NCBI GenBank assembly: GCA_963575745.1
Contig: CAUYUJ010017813.1
Span: 124,001 to 188,000, forward strand
Source: Prorocentrum cordatum
Lineage: Eukaryota; Sar; Dinophyceae; Prorocentrales; Prorocentraceae
Direction of reading: 5' to 3'
Length of the DNA stretch: 64,000 nt
Position 1 is the stretch's first letter. Every line of letters begins with the position of its first letter. The notes under the pieces are model-generated. The model did no database searches. It was not told the origin of the DNA and saw only the letters and a list, made by a program, of their open reading frames with translations. The position numbers and the translations under genes are program-made. Shown here piece after piece: positions 2,572 to 62,959 of this stretch.

Positions 2572-3865
2572 CTAAACTGTGGTGACTCGCCATTGGCCTC
2601 GCGCTGCTTGCGAAGCTCGGCGCGCGCAGCATCCGCCTTTCACACTGAACTCGATTAGACCGGGCCAAGAAAGATCCGGGGTGACGCAATCGCACCGCGC
2701 CACGCTCAACCACCGGGAAGTCGGACGCCACGTGATGAGAGCGGAGTAGTAGTTCCCCAAGAACAACATCATGCCTCCACACACACACACACACCGAGCG
2801 ATCGAACGTGCAAGCTGCAGAAGAGCACGAGGATGGCGGGGATGAACACGAAAGAGACGATCACGAGTCTCCCCAGCAGAGATGCGAACCAGCTCTTTGC
2901 GCCGCTCGAGGCGACGAGGTGGGGGGGGACGAGGTAGGTGACGACGGAACGAGTCCTGGAACGCACGACGGTCGACCGGCTGCTTGTCGCTGGGACGGGG
3001 GCGCCTCGGCGAGATAGCGAGAACAACTGCCGCATGGTCCGACGCGAGGGTATCCGATACCTCAGCGGCCGCGCCGATAGTGTTAGCCTGGAGGAATAAC
3101 TGGCATACCATCCACCCAGGGCACGAGAGGAATAGACGATCGATGCGCGATTCAGAGTTGCTGGATTTTTCGTAGTGGGCGGGCGCAGTGCACTGCACCT
3201 CCATCAATTCGGCAAGCGCGGGACGCCAGGTGGGCGCCTGCGCGCGGTGCCGCCGAGCAGCGCGGTGGACCGCAGCCTGCGGCATATGCAGAACCGCGGC
3301 CTCCTGCGACGCGAAGTTGAAGTCCCCGTTGACGATGGCGAGGCGCTTGGTGGGATCCCTGGCCGCAAAGGCCCGAGCACCGCGGATGGCCCGCGCCGCC
3401 GCCGCGATCTGCATAGCCGTGAGCTCGTGGTTGTGAACATTGACGATGTCGAGCTGGATGTCCGCGATCTCGACCATTATGAAGATGACGCGCCCAGCCA
3501 CCAATGGGACAGCACGACTCTGAGCCGGGTGGCCACCCACAGCGCCAGGAGCAGGTAGGAGGACCGCCACGCCACCACGAACACGTCCCTCGGGGGTGTC
3601 GCCACAAAATGAGGCGTGAATAGTGACCGTTGGGTCGATACCCCGTATGAATTCACTGAATTGTCCAGAATTTGCCGGACCTCCTGAAAAGAGACAATAC
3701 TCTTGCCGATGCTCAGCTTCTCAACGTACCTCCTCTTGAGTGCGGCCTTAGCCCCGGCCGCTTGCAAGAGGGCCCTGCCATTCCAAGTCACTACACGTGG
3801 CGGGGGGATAGCGGCGCCAGGTACAGGAGTAGAGCATTTGAACAGCTTCGCAACATCAAAGACAC
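2572..3865 (-). pseudogene. LINE endonuclease (EEP/APE type), frameshifted
   Basis: The N-terminal strand VVTWNGRALL and the metal-binding glutamate region FQEVR lie in one frame (about 3800-3640). The catalytic GDFNF, the SRIDRLFLS segment and the SDHAAVVLAI motif lie in another frame (about 3450-3030). These are the conserved landmarks of the endonuclease/exonuclease/phosphatase family that nicks target DNA for target-primed reverse transcription. The shift lies near 3540. After the SDH motif the frame continues through a linker region interrupted by a (CA)n array at 2778-2794. The order and spacing fit the N-terminal domain of a LINE ORF2, but the protein cannot be made intact. Confidence 0.75.
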
Positions 3866-6631: not shown

Positions 6632-7216
6632 CACCCCTCACGCAGATCCGCGGGGTCAGGGTCCAAAAACACACGGGATTTGCCACATTTCTGAAATTCG
6701 GTGCCACCCCTCACGCAGATCCGCGGGGTCAGGGTCCAAAAACACATGGGATTTGCCACATTTCTGAAATTCGGTGCCACCCCTCACGCAGATCCGCGGG
6801 GTCAGGGTCCAAAAACACAGGGGATTTGCCACATTTCTGAAATTCGGTGCCACCCCTCACGCAGATCCGCGGGGTCAGGGTCCAAAAACACATGGGATTT
6901 GCCACATTTCTGAAATTCGGTGCCACCCCTCACGCAGATCCGCGGGGTCAGGGTCCAAAAACACATGGGATTTGCCACATTTCTGAAATTCGGTGCCACC
7001 CCTCACGCAGATCCGCGGGGTCAGGGTCCAAAAACACAGGGATTTGCCACATTTCTGAAATTCGGTGCCACCCCTCACGCAGATCCGCGGGGTCAGGGTC
7101 CAAAAACACAGGGGATTTGCCACATTTCTGAAATTCGGTGCCACCCCTCACGCAGATCCGCGGGGTCAGGGTCCAAAAACACAGGGGATTTGCCACATTT
7201 CTGAAATTCGGTGCCA
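6632..7216. repeat. 73-bp satellite, eight units
   Basis: The landmark TCACGCAGATCCGCGGGGTC begins at 6638, 6711, 6784, 6857, 6930, 7003, 7075 and 7148 (to within a base or two), so seven intervals are 73 or 72 bp. Units differ at only a few sites (for example ACACATGGG, ACACAGGGG, ACACAGGG). A ninth, broken unit follows at about 7212. A solitary relative on the opposite strand lies at 37497-37545. The open frames here simply repeat the unit. Confidence 0.95.
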
Positions 7217-7221
7217 CCCTC

Positions 7222-7345
7222 ACGCACATCCATCGCAAGGCGTGGTAACCCAAACTGCGAGAACTCCCTCGGCCCTTTAATCGCAAGGTGTGGTAACCAA
7301 GCCCGTAAACCATACACGTCTTACCAATCGCCAGGTGTGGTAACC
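7222..7345. repeat. Three copies of a short GTGGTAACC motif
   Basis: ATCGCAAGGCGTGGTAACC and close variants occur near 7231, 7280 and 7327, about 48 bases apart, just after the satellite. From 7345 to 7620 no gene or repeat was recognised apart from A/T runs. Confidence 0.65.
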
Positions 7346-9263: not shown

Positions 9264-9426
9264 TGATCCCGTAACATCCCGTGCCAGGACGTGCAAAGGC
9301 GAAGCCTCAAGATATGCAAGCAGACAGTTGCCATCTTTTCAGCAGCACAGTGCACAATGTTACTGAGCTCTCCGCCTGGGCACACAACGAGGCAAACAGT
9401 ACACATCAGCAATCAAATCACTCCCA
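9264..9426 (-). repeat. Split direct repeat b2 (outer 3' end)
   Basis: Starts TGATCCCGTAACATCCCGTG on the plus strand and matches 9585-9791 almost base for base, except that it lacks about 44 bases present in b1 between two AGCA motifs. It forms the outer 3' end of the element. Confidence 0.9.
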
Positions 9427-9517
9427 ACCGGAGAGGTTCGTTCCGCTTTAGCGAGAGTTGTGAAACAACTGAAAGGCAACCCTGCTTCACAGGGTTGAGG
9501 GTGGTTAGCGGGCAGGA
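9427..9517. other. Hairpin-bearing segment between a2 and b2
   Basis: Two close perfect hairpins: AGTTGT-GAA-ACAACT (about 9455-9469) and CAACCCTG-CTTCA-CAGGGTTG (about 9477-9497). No second copy of this segment was found in the element. Hairpins here could mark recombination or RNA ends, which is inference. Confidence 0.6.
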
Positions 9518-9585
9518 GACTTGAGCCGTAACACTATGATACGGCATTCCCTTCAAGCTTTATCATAGCTCGTGCACTTTACAAT
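9518..9585 (-). repeat. Split direct repeat a2
   Basis: 68 bases beginning GACTTGAGCCGTAACACTAT and ending in ACTTTACAAT, with 64 of 68 identical to a1 at 15913-15980. Its last base is shared with the start of b1. Confidence 0.95.
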
Positions 9586-9791
9586 GATCCCGCAACATCC
9601 CGTGCCAGGACGTGCAAAGGCGAAGCCTCAAGATATGCAAGCAGACAGTTGCCATCTTTTCAGCAGCACAGAGCACAATGTTACTGAGCTCTCCGCCTGG
9701 GCACACAACGAGGCAAACAGTACACATCAGCAGTCCAGTGGCGACGAGTTGCGGGATCGTGAGACATGTTCGAGCAATCAAATCACTCCCA
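9585..9791 (-). repeat. Split direct repeat b1 (inner)
   Basis: Full-length version of the b repeat, containing the roughly 44-base segment absent from b2. It lies directly beside a2, as expected for B1-A2 of a YR retroelement. Confidence 0.9.
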
Positions 9792-10061
9792 TACCCACAT
9801 TCACTTGTGCCCTATGGAGTGTCTAAAAACATGTGTTAATCTAGACCCAAAAGACGGGGCCCGAGGCTGTGCATATACTGTTCAGTTAAATGGGCGACCA
9901 GGGAGCGAGCTAAAACATTACACAGGGGGGCGGGATAGGCCTGAGCCCTTCTAGTACGGAAGTTACCCTCGGCGTCCTTACTCATGAGCTGTATGCGGCT
10001 ATGCCCCGTAGCAGAACAGCGCCCCCCTGTCCCAGAACATCTTTTGAAATCGATCAGCGAG

Positions 10062-10640
10062 TTACAATTGATAACCAGGAAGCATGTAGGTTTTTTTCCA
10101 CTGGGTTCCATATTGACAGCAATGCGCCTCGAGCAGACGTGCCCCAAACTTGCGCATAAGAGAAGTGACCTGCTTGGTAAGCCAGACCCTGGACGAAAGC
10201 GGGTTCTCGAGCACCACGGGGGCCCCGATGGAGGCCAGCTGACAGATCGTGCGGAAGGTGGTGACCCAAAGCCTGTTGCCTAGCTGGACCCTGTCGCGAT
10301 CCCTTTTTGAGAGTTCCGGGAGACCCCGGAGGTGTTCACGATCGCCCCGAAGAGGTCCTGGCCCCCGACCATCGCTTTTTCGGGCCCGGGCCCAGGTCTG
10401 GCAGGGGAGGGCAGCAAGCAGGGCAAGGGCTCTGCCCGACTTAAAATCCTGGACGAGCCTGCGTCTGTTGGCGGTCCTCAGTATATCCGCGCCGAGCCCG
10501 TCGATCACGCCCCAAGCTTCCGCTTCGACCCCATGGGCGGCAACTGCCCTCGAGAAGCCGGCTTCACCAGAGAAGAGCTCGACGATTTTCTGGCCCTCGA
10601 AGAGCGCGCGGATCGGGCGAAGTGCGGCATGCCTGACCGG
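10062..10640 (-). pseudogene. C5-cytosine-methyltransferase-like domain of the YR element
   Basis: The last about 190 codons of this frame show VELFSGEAGFSRAVAAHG (AdoMet-binding motif I), LPCQTWARAR (Pro-Cys loop, motif IV position) and VVLENPLSSRVW (ENP in place of the usual ENV of motif VI), then CCQYGTQWKK. No target-recognition domain is evident, so the fold is a short Dcm-like core. DIRS-type elements usually carry an N6-adenine methyltransferase at this place; the PC and ENP motifs point instead to the C5 class. It lies in a different frame from the recombinase upstream, so either a frameshift fused them or a programmed shift was used. The role could be methylating element DNA, which is inference. 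Confidence 0.7.
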
Positions 10641-11645
10641 AGCTGGGCCTCGAGGTTGACCAGACGCGTGGCGGCGCGGCTCTGTGTCGCCTCGGAGACC
10701 AGCTTCTCTTGGAGCTGGAGCCTGCCGTGCGCCTCGTAGCGTCGGACCGACCGATCGCCCCTCCAGCGACCTCTGTCCTTTACCTCTGCCTTCGAGCGGA
10801 GACGGTTCAGGATGTCGTGCGAGGGCCCGCCGTGACGCAACTGGTATAGGTCGGGCTTGAGGGCGGCCAGTCCTGCGGTCCTGGCAGCAGTCTTGAAACT
10901 CTCGTTGAAGCTCCGGTTTTCGAAGTCGAACAGTGCTGGCCCTGCAGCCGCGCCCCGGTGCGCGTCCAGAAGGTATCCGAGGAACGGGGGAGCCGACGAG
11001 TCCAACAGCAGCGTCTCGTCGTACAGGCCAACTTTGCTGGGCTGGCCCCGCTCCGCGCGACGCAAGTGAATCGCGTAGCACGGGCTGCCCTTGGTCGGCG
11101 CGAGCACGTCCGTCACCTGAAGCGAGAGGAGCTCGATCGGCCTCAGGTAGGCCGAGAACAGGAGCATCACCGCCAGTGCCATGCTGACGAGGTTCATGCC
11201 GACGAGCTCCACCGCGATCAGCGCCGCGAGCGCCAGTGGCAGCGGCGGCCTGGTCCTGCCTGGGTCGAGCCTGTTGAACCCCTGCAGCGCCTTCATGGTC
11301 CGCACCAGTTTGTCGGGGCCCCTCTTGGAGAAGGACGGGCGGAGCTTGACCCAGGCCGCGTAGGTGCCCGTTGCCTCGCCGATGTCCGCGCCCACGATCC
11401 ACATCTGGTTCAGGTAGTGGACCAGCGCGCAGTCCACCAGCTTGGCAGAGGTGAGCCTGAGCCCCCCGGCATCCGCCCAGCTCTCGAAGTCGGCGACCCT
11501 CTTCACATGCATGGCGTGGGTCCGCTCGGTGACGGCGTTCGCCTCCAGGAACGTCTCGACGTGCGACTCCGACGAGTTCGACGCCTTGATCCCGATGGAG
11601 CCGACCAGCTCGCGCCTGAGCTGCGCCCGAGCCTGCTTGTTGGGC
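10640..11645 (-). pseudogene. Tyrosine recombinase of the YR element
   Basis: The frame 11645-10640 encodes an N-terminal helical, SAM-like core-binding domain (ETFLEANAVTERTHAMHVKR onward) and a catalytic domain. First-box arginine is in LLFSAYLRPIELLSL, second box is YQLRHGGPSHD (Tyr replaces the usual His three residues before Arg), then GRWRGDRSV with Trp in the third His/Trp position, and the likely nucleophile Tyr in VRRYEAHG. This fits the R-(H/Y)xxR-W-Y plan of phage-integrase-type recombinases, which would integrate a circular cDNA. The open frame with an ATG starts at 11512; homology-like sequence extends upstream without ATG. The upstream RNase H end lies in another frame. Confidence 0.8.
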
Positions 11646-11869
11646 GCTCCTCGAGCCAGGCGCTGCTTCTCCTGTGCTCCCAGCGTGCGGGCTCAGCGCG
11701 CTGCAGCGGCTGTCGGACGCCGCGGAGGCGGCCTCGCCGGCGCCGCCCTGAGGCCGCGGGCCGCGTGGCTGGAAGCCCGCCCAGTGGACGGGAGGGGGCA
11801 GTCCTGGCGGAGGTCGTGGCACGGTAAGCTGCGCCCCAGCACCCGCGGCGCCGGTCGGTAAAGTGCGCC

Positions 11870-14193
11870 TTGAGGAAGGAGACCCCTCCCCATGTTTGAG
11901 CCTAAGGTGCTCCCACAGACGGGGCCCCTTGTCCACTGGGTTTCGCTCCGAGGGTATCCAGCGATGGTGAGCGCGTGCTGATGTGGCGAGCTCCAGGGCA
12001 CAATCTCCTGCAGCAAACCAATCGCGTGAAGTTCTTCATTCGGCCCTTCTCCTGCCCCAAGACATTGCCTAGGTTGTCTCCCAGATGAAGGTGATGAGAA
12101 CGAAAGCCTCCAGAGGACCTCAGGGTGCGTTTTACGCCAGAGACCGCGGCCCGAGACTCCAGATCCCCGATGCCCTCCTTGAACACAAAGGGCGCCGCAT
12201 AGCTAGTCTTCCACATGGAGTCCTGCAGGAGGACCTCGGGGATCTCTTTGAATAGGAAGGTGGGCTCGTAAGGGGAGGGCTCGAAGCGGTCGACGATGGG
12301 CTTCACCGTCTCGAGGTCCTAGAACGGGTCGAGGGCCCCCAGAGCGGCACGACGCGGCGCGGAAGACGGCACGGCACAGCGATAGCGAAACCTCTCGCGA
12401 GCACCTCCAGCCTCCATCACATCCGAGACATTCCAGAGAGACTTGCCCACGGCGTACCCGGACAGCGAAGCATCTGTAGCTTTCACCTGCGGAATCCACG
12501 GCATCCTGAGGTCCGCCCAAGCGAGCGGCAGCAGCACAGATATCCACTTACACTCCAGCGCGGCGGAATGCCAGAGACGCCTCTTGCGGCTCCAGTTCTC
12601 GTGCGTGAACTGATGCAGGGCATTAGACAGCGAGAACATGGAGCGGGTGAGGAGGAATATCGGCGCGACGTAACCGAGAGCCTTACTAATTTGCCAGCCT
12701 GTGACGCGAGGTCTTCTCCTGAGATGAGTGAACGCTGCCACGGCCTTCTCAAGCCGATGCGGGATCGGAAAGACCCCCCCCCCGCGTTTTCCATCAACAA
12801 GGTAGCCCAGGGACTCGAAAAAGGTTGTTACCTCCACCTCTTCATGAACCTGGAAGCCCGCACGTCTGAGCTGATCGACTGCCAACATCTTAACATTACT
12901 GACAGAGTCCTTGTCTGTGCCCATGACAATCAGGTTGTCGCAATAGGGGGGGACCACGGGAACCTTACAAGATAAATCCGGAGTGGGAGCGTCTTCTTCG
13001 AGAAGTCGGTCAGAGCCCAGTTGGGTACCCAATAAGACCTGATGAGAGTGAGCCCTCTGTGCGAACCAGAATGCCCAGGGCCAGCCCTGAGGACAGACAC
13101 GCACGACAGGATACACGCGCCCAGGAAGGCCAGCCCGAGAAGACTCATGTCCAGGAAGAGCGCTCCAAGAAATGACGTTGGCAGCACTAACAGTTGGCAG
13201 GCCAAAGTACTTTCGGAGCCCGTGCGGCAGCACGAGCCAGTAGAAAAAGTTGCTGACATCCGACAGAGCACCGTGCAAAACTTGGCCTTGCGGAGCCTGC
13301 AAGCGAGAGAGGACGGCCCCCGTCGCAATCCTCATCCGAGGCGGCGCTCTGCATCTACGGTTCGGACTCCTGCAGTCCAAGACCACGCGCAGAGCAACAC
13401 CTTTCTTGTCGACAAAGAATGGAGTGATGTGATCCTCGACCTCAAACGAAAACTCAACGATACCCGCGTGATACAAGTCTTTCACAAAACCTTCGTATGC
13501 AATCTGATCAGCTCGTAAGACCTCATCGAAGTAGGGGGTGACATGAGGAGAGGTCTCGATCACTTTCCCCCACTCCTGTGGGGTCTTCAGCATGCGGTCG
13601 GCCCCCTCGATTAAAACCTGGCGCCCCTCCTGGTCGAGAACATCCTCGAGCCTGGGCGCCCTTGCGCCCGACTGAGGAAGAGACGCGGGGGCAGTGCGAA
13701 AGGGTCGGACGCGGCTCGCAACCTCCTCCGAAGCGTAGGAGAGGTCTGTGCGCATGACCTCACGGAAGGCGTCATGCGGAAAAGGTACAGGTTTACCGCT
13801 GCCAGGCACAGAAGCTAGCTTGCTCAGTACCTGATGGTGAGCCTCCTCCTGGGCGAGGTTGGGGGCGAGGTCCGTGGAGCCGACCCCGTACAACTCATTG
13901 AGGGCATTGCACGCCGTCGTCGCTTCTTGCGCACGCCGCTCACGACGCCGGAGGGATCGATCTGAAGCCAAAACTTGCTCAGGCACCTCATGTCCTGCAT
14001 CAACTGGAGGCAAAGGAAAAAGATCGCGTGGCCGATCGCCTGCGACCGCCTGACCATGTCGATGAGCATGAAAAGGCCCAAGCACCTGTGGAGCGCGAGC
14101 TTGATGAAGTCGAGGCTGTAAGACATCACCACCGCGCTGGCCTGGGAGATCTCCTGGGAGTCGGCCACACTGCCCAGGAGGGAGGGGGCTCAT
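11870..14193 (-). pseudogene. Reverse transcriptase-RNase H of the YR element, with in-frame TAG
   Basis: The main frame (14193-12322) holds VTPYFDEVLR, ITPFFVDKKG, RVVLDCRSPNRR and PPYCDNLIVMG. The last is the active-site region, with YCDN where most RTs have YxDD; I believe Asn at the last position is common in this dinoflagellate family. RNase H follows: VKATDASLSGYAV (first Asp), then a TAG stop at 12319-12321. Beyond it the same frame resumes with EGIGDLESRAAV (Glu) and LHLGDNLGNVL (Asp). A shift near 11990 then leads to RWIPSERNPVDKGPRLW (last Asp), the usual end of this RNase H. One stop and one shift therefore break an otherwise continuous protein. It converts element RNA to DNA. Confidence 0.85.
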
Positions 14194-15508
14194 CCCTCCT
14201 CGCCCGCGGGGCCCAGCCCGCCCCCGCCGCGACCACGGCCTTTGCCGCGTCCACGACTCCGGGCCTGCTGCTCCGGGCTTTTCTGCTCTCCTTCGCGATG
14301 GCCGCCTGGTCCTTCAGCTGGTTCGCCACGTACTGGGCCAGCGCAGGATTGGTGCCGCCTCCTGCCGTCTGGGGCCCCCAGCTCATGAGCACATCTCCAG
14401 CAGAGTAATCAGGATTGGATGGCGCGGCCCTGTGGGCCTCCTTGATGAGGGCCATGCGGCGGCACACCAACTCGGCCCACTTCAGAGCCGGCAAGTTGAA
14501 TTGGTCGTAGGTGGCCGCCGCGTCCAATATCCTGCACAGAACCTGATGTTCATACACCGAACGATCGCCCTCTGGGATGCGGGAAGATCGAACCCACCTC
14601 TCATGGTGAGCGTTCGGGCTCGCATCATCATCTCGGATCTGCTTCAGCTGCCAGAACGTGGTAGGCGGACCGTCGAGGCCGAGACCGCCGCGCGGAGGCG
14701 CAGGGCCCATGGCCGCCACCGCGTCCGCGAAGCCGACCTTGCGCTCACCCGACGCGTCCGTGACGACTGGCAGCACCCTGAGATCGTCATGCACGAATCG
14801 GTATATATCAGCCTCCGCCGTGCGCTGCACGAACAGGTGTCCGTTCCCGTACTGGATGATGGCCTTGTCACCGAGGGTCACTCCGTGATCGGGCAGCGTT
14901 GGTATCTGGGTCCCCTTCGCGATGTTCAGGGTGCCCTCGGCCGCGACCCACGCGAGCGGGGGGCCAGCCTGCGCCGCGGCGCCAGCGGGCCCGGGCGCCG
15001 CGGCCGCCGCAGCAGCCGCACCTGGGACAGCCGCGCCGCCTGCCACCGCAGGCGGGGGCGCAGCGGGGCCGAGGTGAGCTCCCAGCGGGGGGGCCGCAGC
15101 CACCAGTGCCCCAGGCGGCGGGGCCGCTGGCCCCAGCGGCGGATGCCACGCGGCGGGGGCAGCGCCAGGTGGGCCCACAACAGGCACCACAGGCCCTGGC
15201 GGAACTGGAACCCCTGCCTGAAGAGCACCATCCGCCACGTGCTGGATCATCTCGGCAGCCGTCGGCACGACACGAAACCGATACACACTTGCTATGGGAA
15301 TGTCTGGGGGCGACACCCCTGGGGCGCTCCGAAACTCAGCAATATCGAGAATATCTGGACGAAGCTCTTCCACAAAAATGTCGCCGTCGAGCGTTAGCAC
15401 TGCGAAGTGGCCTGGCGGATTGCCAACAGCGAGAATGAGCCGCTCATGCCAGAGCGGCGGGCCAGGCAGGTCATACCTGACCAGCACCACATCACCGGGC
15501 GCCACCAT
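14126..15508 (-). CDS. Gag-like protein of the YR element
   Basis: Intact 460-codon frame. Residues 1-100 form a compact beta-rich region (starts MVAPGDVVLVRYDLPG). Residues about 105-190 are a Pro/Ala/Gly-rich linker. The C-terminal half is helical and charged, with WAELVCRRMALIKEAHR, NPDYSAGDVLMSW, NPALAQYVANQLKDQAAI and KESRKA. I recognise this C-terminal pattern from repetitive dinoflagellate proteins upstream of RT domains. No zinc knuckle or protease motif is seen. The ATG overlaps the end of the preceding small ORF by 17 bases, and the 3' end overlaps the RT frame by 68 bases in another frame, so Gag-Pol expression may need a frameshift or re-initiation. Confidence 0.7.
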   Translation of the reverse strand: MVAPGDVVLVRYDLPGPPLWHERLILAVGNPPGHFAVLTLDGDIFVEELRPDILDIAEFRSAPGVSPPDIPIASVYRFRVVPTAAEMIQHVADGALQAGVPVPPGPVVPVVGPPGAAPAAWHPPLGPAAPPPGALVAAAPPLGAHLGPAAPPPAVAGGAAVPGAAAAAAAAPGPAGAAAQAGPPLAWVAAEGTLNIAKGTQIPTLPDHGVTLGDKAIIQYGNGHLFVQRTAEADIYRFVHDDLRVLPVVTDASGERKVGFADAVAAMGPAPPRGGLGLDGPPTTFWQLKQIRDDDASPNAHHERWVRSSRIPEGDRSVYEHQVLCRILDAAATYDQFNLPALKWAELVCRRMALIKEAHRAAPSNPDYSAGDVLMSWGPQTAGGGTNPALAQYVANQLKDQAAIAKESRKARSSRPGVVDAAKAVVAAGAGWAPRARRDEPPPSWAVWPTPRRSPRPARW

Positions 15509-15929
15509 TGCGCTGACGTATGATGGCGAGCTGCTTCAGCGCCAGATCCCGCGTAGCAGCGTCGTCCACGACGGCCTCGGGCTCGGGGCGCCTGAACACG
15601 AACGTGGTCAGCCAGCCGCCGCAGCGACCAATGGGACCTGTGCAAGTCAGGACTCCAAATCCCACGAGGAGGCCCGCGACGAAACCGAAGATGCCAGACC
15701 AGCCCGCTCCCTCGGCGACCTGCGGGGTCACTGACGGACAAGAGAAAGTCGGACAAGTGATATTGATCGACGGCGTCGAACAAGTGACTGTCGGACAGGT
15801 GACCACGCAGTCAGGGCAAGGCGGGCACTGACGCGAGCCCAGGCCCCAAATGATCGCAAGATCGGCGGCCTTGGTAGCGACTAGCTGGGCGGGCCAACCG
15901 ACCATGAGAACAGACTTGGGCCGTAACAT
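15492..15929 (-). CDS. Cys-rich single-pass membrane ORF at the 5' end of the YR element
   Basis: Intact 145-codon frame. Residues about 33-70 carry a run of CPPC/CPTVTC/CPTFSC-type Cys-Pro motifs. A hydrophobic segment (GWSGIFGFVAGLLVGFGVLT) follows, then a basic, charged tail. The first ATG lies inside repeat a1, and a second at codon 8 (MVGWPAQ) may be the true start. It overlaps the Gag-like ORF by 17 bases, an arrangement that suggests translational coupling. Such a protein is not part of the standard DIRS/PAT/Ngaro gene set. It has no signal peptide that I can define. Function unknown; anchoring particles to membrane is speculation. Confidence 0.6.
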   Translation of the reverse strand: MLRPKSVLMVGWPAQLVATKAADLAIIWGLGSRQCPPCPDCVVTCPTVTCSTPSINITCPTFSCPSVTPQVAEGAGWSGIFGFVAGLLVGFGVLTCTGPIGRCGGWLTTFVFRRPEPEAVVDDAATRDLALKQLAIIRQRNGGAR

Positions 15930-15975
15930 TATGATACGGCACTCCCTTCAAGCTTTATCATAGCTCGTGAACTTT

Positions 15976-15980
<5 letters not shown>
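15913..15980 (-). repeat. Split direct repeat a1 (outer 5' end)
   Basis: 68 bases matching a2 (9518-9585) at 64 positions. The outer border runs straight into a (TA)n array, and the inner part contains the first ATG of the small membrane ORF. Confidence 0.95.
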
Positions 15981-16033
<53 letters not shown>

Positions 16034-16052
16034 ACATATATATATGTATATA
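15978..16052. repeat. (TA)n array
   Basis: Nearly pure TA dinucleotides from 15978 to about 16030, then CACACATATATATATGTATAT. It borders the 5' end of the YR element and could be its target. Confidence 0.9.
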
Positions 16053-20273: not shown

Positions 20274-21034
20274 TCAGAAACCCTCGCTGATAGTCTCGGG
20301 CCAGTGGCCCACCTCGTCCTCGAGCCAACCCGCTGGCGCCACTCCTTCGCGGTGAATCGCTGCGTCCTCGGCCCGCAACGCCTCCTGAATGAGTGGCCGC
20401 CCCTCCCAGTTGGGGGCGCCGACTATGACCTTCGTCTTCTGCGAGTCGTACCAGCTCTCTAAACGCAGGGAACTCAAGCTGCTCTCCAGGTCGGCTTTGT
20501 CGACGTCGGGCTCCGCCTCCGCCTCGTCGGGGGGTCATTTCAGCAGGTGCGCATGGATCTCGTTCTTCGCCGCGCCGCCGATTTCGCGCATCGCCGGGCC
20601 CTCCAGGGGCGCCGGCGCTAAGCTGGCGGCGGGGGGCGATGGCCTGTATTCTTCTTGCCGTCGGCTCCCGGCGCGCAAATTGAATCGAGCAATCCTTTGT
20701 ATTCCTCCAGCTCTGCGCTGACCTTGATCACCGTGTCGCGCTTCGTCGGCGTCGCGCGCGCGTCGATCGAGACGGAGGAGGTCAGCCTGTGCGCGCGCGC
20801 CGTCTGCAGTGCGAGTTTGAACGTTGCCTGGAGCAGCGCGAGCAAATTATTGTCCTTGCTGCTCCACGTCTTGATATGATGCTCGCCTCGGTGGGCTCGG
20901 CGCCCGCCCCGGCGCTTCGGCTTCCTGCGCTGGTCGCCGTCCTCCTCGCCTTCGCCCTCCATGGCCGCGTCGCCCACCTCGGCCGCTGCTGCTGCCCCGC
21001 GGGGCGGCGGAGGCCCCGTCGTCAGCTCGGGCAT
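20274..21034 (-). pseudogene. LINE ORF1-like fragment
   Basis: A 138-codon frame (21034-20618) has a basic, Arg-rich region then LLALLQATFKLALQTARAHR and SAELEEYKGLLDSICAPG, a helical pattern I associate with the protein upstream of the endonuclease in dinoflagellate LINEs. A shorter frame downstream (20477-20274) has KTKVIVGAPNWEGRPLIQEA. A Pro/Ala-rich frame upstream (to 21647) might be its N-terminus. No decisive catalytic motif exists in such proteins, so the call is tentative. Confidence 0.35.
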
Positions 21035-21039
21035 GGCCG

Positions 21040-22980
21040 CTGGCGGCGTTCCCTCGGCTCTCCCCGAGCTTGGCCCAGATCCTCGCGAGGCCTAGGAGGA
21101 GCTCGGGGGGTGGCGCCAGGCTGCCCTCGCGGGCAGAGCCGTCGCCGTCGCCTCGCCCATCGCGCCCTCTGGCATCGCTTTCGTCCTGAGGCACAGCCGG
21201 TGGAGGTAGTAATGTCGGGGTCGCCGCTGCCTTCGCGTCCGTGGCGGGGCAGGGACTGTCGACCGGCTTGGAGTCGATGTTGCTCTCGGGGAACCAGCGC
21301 CGGGCGGTTTCGCTCGCGCGGGGGCCTTCGCGCGAGCCGGCAGCAGGAGCCGGTCGGAAGCGCGTCTCAGCTCGCACCTGGCCGCCAAGGTGCCCCGCGC
21401 AGCTCGTGGGAGACGTGGCGGGGCGGCGCAGCGAAGGGCCAGCTCGATGGTTGGGCGGTGGTGCCAGCAGCCGGTCTGCGAGAAATGGCCTCGAACAACG
21501 AACCCGATGGCGACGGGTGAATGCGGGTGAGCACGTGTTGCCGTAGCTTCCCAGGGTCATTTTCAGGAATACATGTAGATCCACTTGATACTCAGCTATC
21601 GGACCTGCCGTGCATGTTGAAGGTGTCCATGGGTATGCAAGGCGCACAAGTTCCGCGATGCACCTGCCGCGTTGCCACGCTCGTCGCGAGCGTCGTACTG
21701 CGAGACCTACGCTTGGGAATGTCGCATTGCATGCAACGCATGTGTTGCCGTAGTGTAGATGAAATAGGATGTTGGGCTGCCCGCGCCCTTCAGCTTTGCT
21801 TTTTGTTCGATGGCTTACCAGCTGTCGTATTGCGCCGAACCAGAGACCGCGCCCAGGGAGCCCACTTCCGAAAGGAAGGAATACCTCGTCGCCCCTGTCG
21901 GTCTCAGCCTGCTAATTCTGGGACGGGGCGGCCTCCGAAATCGTTCCCCCCGGGGGGGGGGGGGTCCGCTGGCGCGCCCAGAAGCCTGCGCGTAGTGCGC
22001 GCATGTCGCAGAAAAGAAAAGCGTCACGGATGTCGCCATCGATCCAAGGTTTTGCCCATCGTCTGCGGTTGCCACGGCTCTCGAACAAATCGCCAGTCAA
22101 ATGCGGGATGAGGCACTCGTCATCAATCGAGAGCACGCGTGCCCATGGATGAGCAGGCGCGCCGACCCCTCGCCCTGCTCATTGAGGGTGGAGACTGGAA
22201 CGGGGCGCTTGCTCGTGGCCGCCTGCGTCTCAAATTGACATCTTCCAAGGAAGACCGCGAAGAACTGACCGTCGTGGCTGACGTTGCTAACGGTGCGTTG
22301 CCACCATCTGAGGGCCACTTGCCACTCTCGGAAGATCTGGGGCGTTGTCTTAGATCGACGATGGCCTTCTGGGTCCTCGCGGTGCGCGGCTCCGTTTTGC
22401 ATGGCCCGTGATATGTTGTTTGGCTAGCGCGCAGTCTAGTGGGCGTTCCTCGCGGGGGCACAGTACGTAACTCTCGAGGCCAGGCAAGACGCGGCCCGCG
22501 ACGTTCGACAGTCGACAGGAACGATAACCCTTTGTTGTTCCAAGGCCCCTTGGAGATCCACTAGTCACCCATCCGAATCCACCCTATATTGCCTGATATG
22601 ATACGTTCGTGTAGCTCGCGCTGCGAGTGCAGGGCTACGCGCATAGATCCATCCAGGCGCGCGAGATCTTGGACCGCCTTACCCGAGATACGTCGCTCAG
22701 CTTCTTTAGCGACAGCTCGGCTGGCTAGGCTGATGAGGGCGTCCTGCTTGCTTATAGTTTGTGGATGCCCCCCGCGACGCAGTGCCCGAGATGGGCTTGC
22801 ATTGTCGATCTCATCCAGCGGCGAGGCCTGGTCGGCGGCCCCGTGGGGGACCAGGGGGATCTCAACTAAGTCGCCGCTGAAAGCGCTAAGAGGCCCAGGG
22901 GGGACCTGCTCGGCAAAACGGACAAACCACTTGAAAAAGGCCCCCCCCCTGCAGCTCAGCCATCTCCTCCTCCCGCTCCT
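21040..22980. other. Region without firm gene call
   Basis: Open frames exist on both strands (plus 21521-22111, minus 22402-22097) but no family motif was recognised. The minus frame with WQVALRWWQRTVSNVSHDGQ has a Trp-rich pattern that could be another retroelement ORF1 piece. G and C runs at 21940-21970 interrupt frames. Confidence 0.3.
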
Positions 22981-37496: not shown

Positions 37497-37545
37497 TTCC
37501 CATGTGTTTTTGGACCCTGACGTCACGATCTGCGTGAGGGGTGCC
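37497..37545 (-). repeat. Solitary unit of the 73-bp satellite
   Basis: CCCATGTGTTTTTGGACCCT and GATCTGCGTGAGGGGTG on the plus strand are the reverse complement of the satellite unit at 6632-7216, with seven central bases replaced (GTCACG-like in place of CCCGCGG). Confidence 0.85.
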
Positions 37546-37738
37546 ACCGATTTTCAAAATTTCGAGGATGTCCCGAATTTCGAAAATTTCCCCGAACGAA
37601 ACGGCCAGAAAAATAGCGGACGCGGCGCCCCGCGTACGCATTAATCGCCTCTGAGCGTTACTCCCTCGGAGAGGTGCGTGTCATAATACATATACATATA
37701 TATATATATATATATATGCAACAGAAGCCGAGGCCTGT

Positions 37739-44418: not shown

Positions 44419-44636
44419 GGCCCCCTCTGCACTCGTCGGCTACACGCAGGAGTGACCCTGGGTAGGAGTGACCTCTGGTGCGCGGCTTCTGGGGGGCCGC
44501 GGGGGGGGGGGCCAAGAGCGGGCGCGCAGGACGCCACTGCCGCCTCGCGTTCGGCGATCGGGGACCCCAGTGGGCCCGCACCAAAGGTCACTCCGGCGAA
44601 GGGTCACTCTTACGTGTAGACGAACTCGGAGGGGCC
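44419..44636. mobile_element. Fold-back element with about 60-bp inverted arms
   Basis: The left arm 44419-44482 (with CGGCTACACGCAGGAGTGAC and GGAGTGACCTCTGGTGCG) pairs with the right arm 44577-44636 (CGCACCAAAGGTCACTCCGG and GGGTCACTCTTACGTGTAGA) with scattered mismatches. The spacer of about 95 bases contains a run of G. There is no coding sequence. Confidence 0.65.
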
Positions 44637-44711
44637 TGCCTCCGGCCTTCCCCGCCTCGGGCCTCCACCTCCTGCCGATGGTGCTGCGCGGCGGTGCTGC
44701 GGGCAATAGTT

Positions 44712-44886
44712 CTATCCACATCCAATGCGTCTTGGATTCCTGGGCTCTCTTCCCCAGAAGCCGTAGACGCACTGGGTATGGATAAACAACTGGCCCCAAG
44801 AGGCTTGATTTTATCCATATCCAGTGCGCCTCGGCGTTGCGGCACCTCTTCCCAAAAAGTCCACGACGCTCTGGATATGGATATAA
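44712..44886. mobile_element. Two tandem fold-back units of about 75 bp
   Basis: TATCCACATCCAATGCGTC (44713) with GACGCACTGGGTATGGATA (44766), and TTATCCATATCCAGTGCGCC (44811) with GACGCTCTGGATATGGATAT (44865): four copies of one 18-20-base arm in alternating orientation. Each pair folds into a hairpin of about 75 bases. Confidence 0.75.
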
Positions 44887-45004
44887 GTACTGCCCGCAGG
44901 TGCCACGTGGGCGGCACCCCCCAAACCATGCATCTCCTGGAGGGCCGATGCATGCTTCCGCCGGCATCCGCCGGCGGACTGCAGTCTTCAGTCGACCCGT
45001 AGAA

Positions 45005-45150
45005 CAAGGACGCACGATACGGCTGCGAGGGCCTTCGACGCCATTCCGAAGCTTTTCGAGCGGGGCGCGGCCAACGAAAATGGCCAGGGACGGACCGAGG
45101 AGGCAAGGACTCAAGGATACCCTTGGGGAAGGTTGCCCATCCTTACCATG
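45005..45150. repeat. Dispersed repeat, copy 2 (other copy at 7.9 kb)
   Basis: Matches 7890-8045 in order: GGACGCACGATACGGCTGCG, AGGGCCTTCGACGCC, CTTTTCGAGCGGGGC, GAGGCAAGGACTCAAGGATA and CCCTTGGGGAAGG. Confidence 0.7.
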
Positions 45151-45654
45151 CTGGTTGACTGTAGCCTGCCTGATGCCTTTCCTGCCAGCCTCCCGCCGCC
45201 TTTCGCCGAGGAAGGGGTGCCAGCTTCTTGACCCCTCGGAGGCGAGGCCCTTTCTGGAGAGCGCCTCGCGTGGCACGTGAGCTCAACGAGGCCTGCTGCC
45301 GACGCCCTGACCGGATCCCAGCTTATTGAAGGCAGAAGGCTCCCCGGTGCCAGTGCTGGGCCCAGTTGCCTGGCGCGCGACAGCTGGCACCTCGCTGGCC
45401 CTGCAGAGCAGGTGAGCCATGCCGGCGCATGCCCTGCAGAACAGAGGAACCATGGCTGCTGGGAGAGTCACCGTCGATGCAGCAAGCCGCGGGCGACGAG
45501 GTCCCATTATGTCCCCATCACGCTTGCAGGGGTGAGGGGTACGCGACGCATGTATCCCTCACTCGAACGGTCGCTCAGATAGGCGCTCCTGCTAGCAGTC
45601 CGATCCAGAGACTTCCTAACACCTCCGTAGACATTCCAGAACTTCAGGACACGT
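45150..45654. other. Spacer without recognised gene
   Basis: Open frames on both strands without any family motif. Confidence 0.35.
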
Positions 45655-50814: not shown

Positions 50815-51035
50815 TCCTCCTGCTCCTCCTCCTCCTCCTCCTCCTCCTCCTCCTCCCTCCCTCCCTCCCTCCCTCCCTCCCAGCCTCCTCCCCAGCGGCG
50901 CGCCCGCCGCCGCCCGCCTGGCCCCTCCCACGCAGCAGGACGACGCCGGCGTGCCAACCGCTGGTCGCGCCGCCTTGCGGGCCCGCGCCCCCGCGCCCCC
51001 GCGCGTCGGGGGCCGCGCTTCGGGCGCATAGCCTC
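50815..51035. repeat. TCC/CCCT array and GC-rich spacer
   Basis: TCC units at about 50812-50855, then CCCT units to 50882. GC-rich DNA without a gene follows to 51035. Confidence 0.8.
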
Positions 51036-51372
51036 GGGCGCCCGAGTTATCCGTGGTAGCTCGGGCCCGGGGCAACTCGGGTTCGGATTCCCGAAGAACG
51101 AACCCGAGTTAGCCCTGACCCGAGTTACCCCTGATGATTTGGGGCTCTGGGCGCCCGAGTTATCCGGGGTAACTCGGGCCCCGGGCAACTCGGGTTCGGA
51201 CTCCCGAAAAACGAACCCGAGTTAGCCCTGACCCGAGTTGCCCCTGATGATTTGGGGCTCTGGGCGCCCGAGTTATCCGGGGTAACTCGGGTCCTGGATA
51301 ACTCGGGTTCGGACTCCCGAAAAACGAACCCGAGTTAGCCCTGACCCGAGTTACCCCTGATGATTCGGGGCT
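51035..51372. repeat. 113-bp tandem repeat of hairpins, three units
   Basis: GCGCCCGAGTTATCCG begins near 51038, 51151 and 51265. Each unit has two perfect inverted repeats: CCCGAGTTA..TAACTCGGG, and ACTCGGGTTCG..CGAACCCGAGT. The units end CCTGATGATT(T/C)GGGGCTCTG. Confidence 0.9.
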
Positions 51373-51579
51373 CTGAGGCTGAGCCCAGGGGAGGCCAACA
51401 CGTGTGTCCAGGGCCGGCGAAGGCCCATGCCTTCGGCGAGGCTCCCGAGCGCATGCGTGTCTGGCTCCCCCCCCTGGGCCATTCGCCCCTCTCGTCGACG
51501 CCGCGCGGGCGCACGCCTCCGCGCAAGGCCCCGGCGTCGTCGCGCTGGCCGCGGCAGTGGCCGAGGCCGCCGCGGCCGT

Positions 51580-55154: not shown

Positions 55155-56025
55155 CGCAAACATACATACATGCATACATACATACATACATACATGCATA
55201 CATGCATATATGCATCCATACATACATGCATACATGCATACATGCATACACTCATACATAAATACATCCATCCATCCATCCATCCATCCATCCATACATA
55301 CATACATACATACATACATACATACAAACACCCGTTCATGCATACACAGCTACCTATATACCCACCTACCTACCTGCATGCATGCATACACACATACACA
55401 CACATACACATACACACATACACACATACACATACACATACACATACATATACACATGCACATACACATACACATACACATACACATACACGTACACATA
55501 CACACATACACACATACACACATACATACATACGTACATGCATGCATACATACATACACGCATACATACATACATGCATGTATGCATACATACATACACG
55601 CATGCAATCATACATACAAAATGCATATCTATATACATGCATGCATGCATACATACATACGCACAAACGTACATACGTATGCATACATACAAACATGCAT
55701 ACATGCATATATATATATATATATACACACATTTATACATGCCGACCTACCTATCTATCTACCTACCACCAGACATACATTCACTCATAGTTGCATGCGC
55801 AATTACAAAACTATATAAGTACAATCATACATACAACATACACAAACATACACACGTTCGTATACACACATACGCACGTCCGTCCATACATGCGTGCATA
55901 CGTACATACATACATACATACATGCGCACATACCTACGTACGTACATACATGTATGCGTGCATGCGCGCATGTGCATCCATGAATGCATACACAAATATT
56001 GAAACACCCACACACACATATACAT
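55155..56025. repeat. (CATA)n / (CATACA)n array, about 870 bp
   Basis: CATA tetranucleotides with CATG, CATC, CACA and CATATACACA variants. The apparent proteins of alternating Ile-His-Thr-Tyr or Cys-Met-Tyr-Val are artefacts. Confidence 0.95.
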
Positions 56026-61870: not shown

Positions 61871-62149
61871 CGTCATCATCATCAACAACAACAACATCAT
61901 CATCAACATCATCATCACCAACATCATCATAATCGGAACACCGTCCCCATCATCAACACCAACATCATCATCATCACGGGCATCAACATCATCGGGACAC
62001 CACCATCGTCATCATCATCAGCACCATCATCACAATCATCATCATCATCAACATCATCATCATCAGCAGCATCGGGACACAGTCATCGTCATCATCATCA
62101 TCATCAGCAGCAGCATCATCATCGGGACACCATCATCATCACCATCGTT

Positions 62150-62198
<49 letters not shown>

Positions 62199-62652
62199 GC
62201 ATCATCATCATCATCGGGACACCATCATCATCATCATCTCATCCTCATCATCGACATCATCAGCATCAGCATCATCAACATCATCATCAGCATCATCATC
62301 GTCATCATCGGGGCACCATCATCATCATTACCAACATCAGCATCAACATCCTCATCATCATCATCACCATCGGGACGCCATCATCATCAACATCATCATC
62401 ACCATCGGAATAATTATCATCATCGGGACGCCATAATCATCATCAACCTCATCATCATCAACATCATCATCATCATCGGACACAATCATAATCAGCATCA
62501 TCAACATCAACATCATCATACTCATCATCACCGGGACACCATCATTGTCATCATCAAGATAATCAACAAAATCATCATGATCATCATCCTCATCATCGGG
62601 ACACCATCACCATCATCATCATCATCATCGTCATCATCATCATCGACATCAG

Positions 62653-62689
<37 letters not shown>

Positions 62690-62811
62690 GGGACACCATC
62701 ATCATCATATCATCACCATCATCATCATCGTCCTCATCATCATCAGCATCATCATCAGCATCACCATCCTCATCATCATCGTCATCATCATCATCAGCAG
62801 CATGATCATCC

Positions 62812-62842
<31 letters not shown>

Positions 62843-62898
62843 CATCACCATCATCATCATCATCATCTTCTCGTCATCACCATCATCACCATCATCAC

Positions 62899-62957
<59 letters not shown>
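61870..62957. repeat. (ATC)n array with interspersed CGGGACACC
   Basis: More than a kilobase of ATC/CAT trinucleotides with ACC, AAC, GTC changes. About ten times the sequence TCGGGACACC(A/G) interrupts it. Confidence 0.95.

Positions 62958-62959
<2 letters not shown>

Follow-up and report, generated by a model that had tools for sequence, protein, structure and literature searches.

A Prorocentrum cordatum retrotransposon with PAT-type split direct repeats, a tyrosine recombinase gene apparently nested in Pol, and a C5-like methyltransferase domain

We report an element found in a 64,000-nucleotide stretch of the dinoflagellate Prorocentrum cordatum (assembly GCA_963575745.1, contig CAUYUJ010017813.1, positions 124,001 to 188,000 of the forward strand); the whole stretch is referred to as the window, and all coordinates are those of the window. 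Judging by sequence comparison, positions 9264-15980 (minus strand) almost certainly represent a multi-copy tyrosine-recombinase (YR) retrotransposon with split direct repeats of the PAT type. With only slightly less confidence, we believe that its YR gene is nested in the Pol frame, which encodes reverse transcriptase (RT) and RNase H, and that a methyltransferase (MT) domain forms the end of Pol. The combined reading, a PAT-type YR retrotransposon with YR nested in Pol and MT tethered to RT, appears to be the probable explanation of the whole. The preliminary description of this DNA proposed the element class; the frame shared by MT and Pol, the nesting of YR in Pol and the continuation of MT beyond position 10062 are added here.

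The evidence on the layout comes from other copies. A YR query of the assembly (4.13 Gb, 21,875 contigs) gave at least 111 matches (105 of 11,291 candidates were scored), and 20 loci were compared: 10 of the same family (YR 85-92% identical) and 10 distant ones (YR 34-41%). An unbroken Pol open reading frame (ORF) of 1,072-1,591 codons, from RT motif C to MT motif IV, is present in 11 of the 20 (L029, L032, L033, L036 and L038-L044), a fraction that is no genome-wide estimate because the loci were picked from longer, better matches. The YR ORF (456-576 codons stop to stop) lies wholly within Pol at offset 1 in each of these 11 loci; the other nine have Pol interrupted by breaks. As for the distant loci, the RT adjoining YR and the MT start keep a common frame in 9 of 10.

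Across the 290-codon YR core, the Pol frame has no stops in 18 of the 20 testable copies and one stop each in L034 and L045 (L035, with no testable YR ORF, was left out, and copies within a family are not independent). Synonymous shuffles of the same codons give on average 2.1-7.2 stops, and 0.1-9.3% of the shuffles are as low; the third frame over the same core is as expected (5-11 stops vs 7.0-11.6). Substitutions fall mainly at YR third positions: 60 of 94 between L033 and the window copy, 25 of 32 between L036 and L038 and, more weakly, 19 of 40 between L041 and L042. Between families (six pairs), identity amounts to 29-35% for the Pol linker, 31-36% for the third frame and 34-44% for YR. 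Considering that the substitutions concentrate at YR third positions and that the linker is no more alike than the third frame, we conclude that selection in the overlap acts on the YR protein; Pol seems to be needed there only to stay open, and the linker is therefore read as an MT tether.

The nested frame was first suggested to be ancestral by predicted proteins, the genome copies then settling the layout. Protein relatives were drawn from a set of 5.8 billion proteins (12 for YR, 4 for MT, 7 for RT). Read at -1, the YR tails of P0002, P0005, P0006 and P0009 show MT motif I 46-49 codons past the Tyr motif, and the YR Tyr motif appears when the P0014 N-terminus is translated at +1 (1/500 shuffles). 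Back-translation was below significance for P0001 (19/200) and P0011 (7/200, at a different place), and also for P0003, P0007, P0008, P0010, P0018, P0021 and P0022; most tails are too short for the motif. P0009 gave 100/200 with a 24-column profile and was significant only with a 14-column one; P0017 was non-significant with the YR core profiles and significant only for the YR N-terminal motif (0/200).

The minus-strand order in the window copy is A1 - ORFs - B1 - A2 - B2, as claimed in the preliminary description, and matches to A1, B1, A2 and B2 occur in that order in all 10 same-family loci (with a shorter A match in L034 and L035). The left terminal repeat A1 (15912-15980) is identical to A2 (9517-9585) at 65 of 69 bases, against the 64 of 68 initially counted, and holds the likely ATG of ORF1 (15929). 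B1 (9586-9791) and the right terminal repeat B2 (9264-9426) differ by a single 44-base gap and two substitutions, which agrees with the earlier comparison. Since the B1/B2 match extends over 171-209 bases in the 10 same-family loci and over 152 in the window copy, the simplest explanation of the gap is that B2 of the window copy has suffered a deletion. The B1/A2 junction of the window copy, GGGATC-AT-TGTAAAG, is the one expected of a circle; eight of the 10 same-family loci (L026-L033) start with TTGTAAAG and have B1 joined to A2 as GGGATCATTGTAAAG, again as expected of a circle junction. For the spacer between A2 and B2 (9427-9516, minus strand, as are all the repeats) two hairpins are predicted (z -2.05, equalled in 6 of 200 shuffles).

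The 10 same-family loci all align over nearly their full length, L028 having lost an internal part. Their repeats are 92-100% (A1/A2) and 95.4-99.5% (B1/B2) identical; in the distant loci B pairs occur throughout (10 of 10) and A pairs everywhere but in L043 (9 of 10), in unchanged order, with identities of 95.3-100% for A and 97.2-100% for B. Some copies therefore look recent. The preliminary description suggested a search for other copies and named, as findings that would speak against it, the absence of the repeats from them, an MT block belonging to unrelated host DNA, or a DDE integrase. In the fetched loci, same-family and distant, the repeats are present to the extent given above and the MT block accompanies the element; no DDE integrase family was matched in the Pfam scan of the scanned ORFs, although a divergent one could escape Pfam. 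As regards the inverted terminal repeats and internal complementary regions of DIRS1-like elements, the only inverted repeats detected were (AT)n palindromes, and the repeats of the element are direct. Concerning the flanks, the A1 side adjoins an (AT)n stretch (15981-16049) and the B2 side adjoins AT-rich DNA; L032 and L034 likewise adjoin (AT)n.

Four coding units can be distinguished in the window copy, all on the minus strand: ORF1, ORF2, Pol (RT, RNase H, linker and C5-like MT in one frame) and the nested YR. ORF1 (15492-15947, 151 aa stop to stop) encodes a short protein rich in Cys and Pro, in which a single hydrophobic stretch is membrane-like. It matches P0018, a predicted protein of P. 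cordatum (89% over 96 aa), and is found in 10 of 10 same-family loci, so that the Cys-rich membrane ORF of the preliminary description is real; at the distant loci an automated filter detected such an ORF in 4 of 10 (L041, L043-L045), and L038 and L042 were added by eye. The gag-position protein ORF2 (14126-15535, 469 aa stop to stop) also matches P0018 (77% over 293 aa). Its pattern was found in 8 of 10 distant loci, of which L043 and L044 via a pattern derived from L043 itself.

The first part of Pol (12319-14313) comprises RT with motif C YCDN and the start of RNase H, and ends at an in-frame stop. RNase H continues beyond the stop in the same frame (11902-12318, by alignment) up to a frame break near 12.0 kb; the next part (10062-12035) contains the RNase H end, the linker overlapping YR, and MT with motif I from 10583. 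The MT domain extends beyond 10062 in another frame, to about 9878: its C-terminal part occupies 9836-10120 (tblastn match 10108-9878). YR (10505-11692) is nested in the Pol frame at +1, with a catalytic-type Tyr codon at 10738, and was recognised through relatives; it matches P0018 (88% over 342 aa). Its ORF has 395 codons here vs 510 in 7 of 10 same-family loci. The window copy is decayed, as follows from the in-frame stop in Pol, the frame breaks in RNase H and MT, and the short YR ORF. Pfam searches with the element ORFs at E 1 (ORF2 among them) gave nothing but Ribonuclease_3 (0.25), matched by chance in an off-frame ORF, and the identification was therefore made through relatives. RNase H, with no Pfam RNase_H match, was recognised by alignment and by a D-E-D-D pattern, which we take to be characteristic of this enzyme.

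The 12 YR homologs conserve R, K, RH, W and Y, the residues presumably required for recombinase function. A Pfam scan of 10 proteins matched PF00589 in P0010 and, weakly, in P0022, and RVT_1 in P0017, P0019 and P0023. P0018, which its source assigns to Prorocentrum cordatum, covers the Cys-rich and gag-like ORFs, RT pieces and YR, its gene model stopping before MT. P0021 (source label Skav, which we take to be Symbiodinium/Fugacium kawagutii) and P0022 are continuous proteins that comprise RT, RNase H and YR but no MT, so that in some related elements YR is an in-frame fusion and not a nested gene. The YR tree (14 rows) groups the window copy with P0018, P0001, P0002, P0003, P0005 and P0006 (96/97); P0009 is unplaced. 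No relatives were found in viral contigs scanned with the YR, MT and RT profiles or in a genome contig set scanned with the MT profile, and among phages the tblastn queries P0014, P0013 and P0015 yielded a single match, due to chance (E 3). A sequence search of PDB gave nothing significant (best E 0.28 for the MT profile and 0.095 for YR, no match for RT).

The usual RT motif C is YxDD. Here the last two residues are DN in all 8 aligned proteins and in all 20 loci (17 YCDN, 2 YVDN, 1 CCDN). A literature search for YADN together with reverse transcriptase found no paper.

Pol appears from its sequence to terminate in a divergent domain resembling cytosine methyltransferases, and we consider a C5-type fold quite probable. 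The C5-like domain with PCQ and ENP motifs, noticed in the preliminary description, holds: both motifs are present in the window and conserved, relatives at 31-55% identity retain PC-TW, ENP and YG--K, and the profile score is 40.1 for C5 vs 24.8 for N6-adenine (N6A) methyltransferases, to which the Dam-like MT of DIRS1-like elements belongs. In the structure prediction proposed there to distinguish C5 from N6, a low-confidence model of the relative P0014 has a C5 methyltransferase fold, with motifs I, IV, VI and VIII aligned in order and no N6A fold among the 50 structure matches listed. Like C5 DNA methyltransferases (M.HhaI, M.HaeIII, DNMT1/3), the domain has this predicted fold and the order of motif I, PC, EN and YG--K; unlike them, it has ENP for ENV (the C5 consensus), a short region past motif VIII and no significant sequence match. 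PF00145 was below cut-off or absent in the sequences scanned, the window family being unmatched even at E 10; a search of NCBIfam with MT gave nothing useful, and PHROGs gave weak DNA-methyltransferase matches (best 0.0012 for P0015 and 0.00092 for L036; none so named for L042). Surveys based on PF00145 would thus miss this almost Pfam-invisible domain.

Dinoflagellate A-B-A-B elements with a C5 methyltransferase have been described before. The available text on SymbioDIRS-Dnmt3 (de Mendoza et al. 2018, PMC5890265) describes DNMT3-bearing A-B-A-B DIRS-like elements of Symbiodinium, in which the DNMT, found by PF00145 and placed in the Dnmt3 clade, is encoded in the same ORF as RT; for YR, an ORF of its own is described. 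The suggestion of the preliminary description that its gene set is unfamiliar from described YR groups therefore lacks support in that form: a C5 DNMT in the RT ORF of A-coding-B-A-B dinoflagellate elements was published in 2018, as the same text indicates. As far as this text allows a comparison, the two share a dinoflagellate YR element, the A-coding-B-A-B layout, a domain of cytosine-MT type in the ORF of RT, and a divergent RT. They appear to differ in that the MT of the window family is nearly Pfam-invisible, unlike the Pfam-detectable Dnmt3, and follows the YR position, and in that YR, in its own frame, lies wholly inside Pol.

Other YR elements were compared through the accessible parts of the respective papers. 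PAT elements combine split direct repeats with an MT domain, and the PAT-like echinoderm-form Pat1 and Toc3 share with our element the MT domain and the direct orientation of YR (PMC4157794); our element is set apart by its C5-like MT after the YR position, its whole YR overlapped by Pol and its extra Cys-rich ORF1. Against the zinc finger in the Pat1 Gag, none was found in ORF2 by Pfam, no motif search aimed at zinc fingers having been made. DIRS1-like elements have a Pol of RT, RNase H and MT that overlaps YR, as here, but the catalytic part of their YR is in the non-overlapping 3' end and their terminal repeats are inverted (PMC3266345), whereas here the repeats are direct and the entire YR, Tyr included, is within the Pol frame. 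Ngaro and VIPER share the A1-B1-A2-B2 split direct repeats and YR; unlike our element, they are described as having no MT domain and usually no ORF overlaps (PMC3266345, PMC6681497). The word DIRS is absent from the main text of the P. cordatum genome paper (PMC10666404) and of a review of dinoflagellate genomics (PMC11453091). In the papers searched, largely non-subscription ones, we found no description of a Pol that encloses a whole YR gene. The whole YR nested in Pol, the Pfam-invisible MT and the DN motif C look unreported in the literature searched.

An enzyme gene of about 460-580 codons lying in a different frame within a second enzyme gene would be, to our knowledge, among the longer gene-in-gene overlaps in eukaryotic mobile elements.

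Several other explanations deserve consideration. Our initial model was that MT is expressed by -1 ribosomal frameshifting from YR, at an A-AAA site immediately preceding motif I, and not as the end of Pol. It is consistent with A AAA at 10589-10586 directly before motif I in the YR frame of the window copy, with the position of MT at -1 to YR in the window and in all copies where both are readable, and with the lack of an ATG in 484 codons upstream of motif I. However, no X XXY YYZ heptamer is near the site and no unusual structure is downstream (z +0.79); the MT frame is open from RNase H to 10062 in the window copy, and the frame of RT and RNase H runs open into MT in the 11 loci with unbroken Pol; frameshifting from YR does not need the openness of Pol over the whole YR core. 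The model was replaced by read-through of Pol after the genome copies had been read, and we now find it very improbable. The proposal that everything is a chance cluster of decayed fragments beside unrelated host DNA could appeal to the in-frame stop and frame breaks of the window copy; with the nearly end-to-end alignment of the same-family loci and the same order in distant families, it has been ruled out and its probability is negligible.

It seems improbable, though less so than frameshifting, that the element does no more than extend the SymbioDIRS-Dnmt3 group to Prorocentrum. The common host phylum and the shared features listed above favour this; the published DNMTs are found by PF00145, which has no match in the window family, and nesting is unmentioned in the text compared, where YR is a separate ORF (PMC5890265). 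More weight should be given to the view, still unlikely in our opinion, that MT is not an active DNA cytosine methyltransferase and is dead, RNA-acting or structural. Motif VI is ENP, motif VIII is YGTQWKK-like, some families alter motif IV (DC) or VI, the region past motif VIII is short, and no CpG depletion or other footprint of self-methylation was found in the element. Against it stand the motifs retained by the relatives and the motif IV Cys, counted in 19 of 20 loci from alignment rows and a Cys in every row given (it was not recovered in L045, and L028, where a deletion covers the position, is absent from the MT rows).

Returning to a YR retrotransposon with MT as the end of Pol, we propose the following course of events. 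During reverse transcription the ends would be joined through the A and B repeats, giving a DNA circle with a B-A junction, and YR, made as a separate protein, would recombine this junction into a short AT/T target, here the (AT)n stretch. The linker would be kept stop-free so that MT stays tethered to RT, and the tethered MT would most likely methylate the cytosines of the new cDNA before integration; cDNA methylation as the role of MT is a tentative proposal. It is tempting to go further and suppose a separate old dinoflagellate YR clade with the recombinase obligately dual-coded in Pol, the linker as a mere stop-free tether for a captured C5-derived methyltransferase, cDNA marked during synthesis, an Asp-Asn RT active site and its own Cys-rich membrane protein; this is conceivable, with the odds somewhat against it.

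Elsewhere in the window, a tandem array of a 73-base unit (6632-7231, 8.2 copies, 98% matches) has a related 63-65-base stretch, inverted, at 37498-37560. A 113-base unit is repeated three times at 51036-51375, self-complementary over 51030-51380, and long degenerate ACAT and TCA simple-repeat tracts occupy 55160-55951 and 61873-62959. The ORF at 2572-3720 (minus strand) has a sub-threshold endonuclease match (PF03372, E 0.0074) and is possibly a LINE remnant. Many long ORFs (44440-45282, 20684-21911 and similar) are of low complexity or overlap on both strands, which is typical of a GC-rich genome and not of genes.

The nesting spans families in which recombinase identity is only about 34-44%, and the stop-free but otherwise unconserved linker offers a testable rationale for it: the methyltransferase is kept attached to the reverse transcriptase. 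The constant Asp-Asn in motif C bears on the need for the second metal-binding Asp. With this MT domain, the retroelements of dinoflagellates gain a second kind of C5-like methyltransferase, one that is nearly invisible to Pfam.

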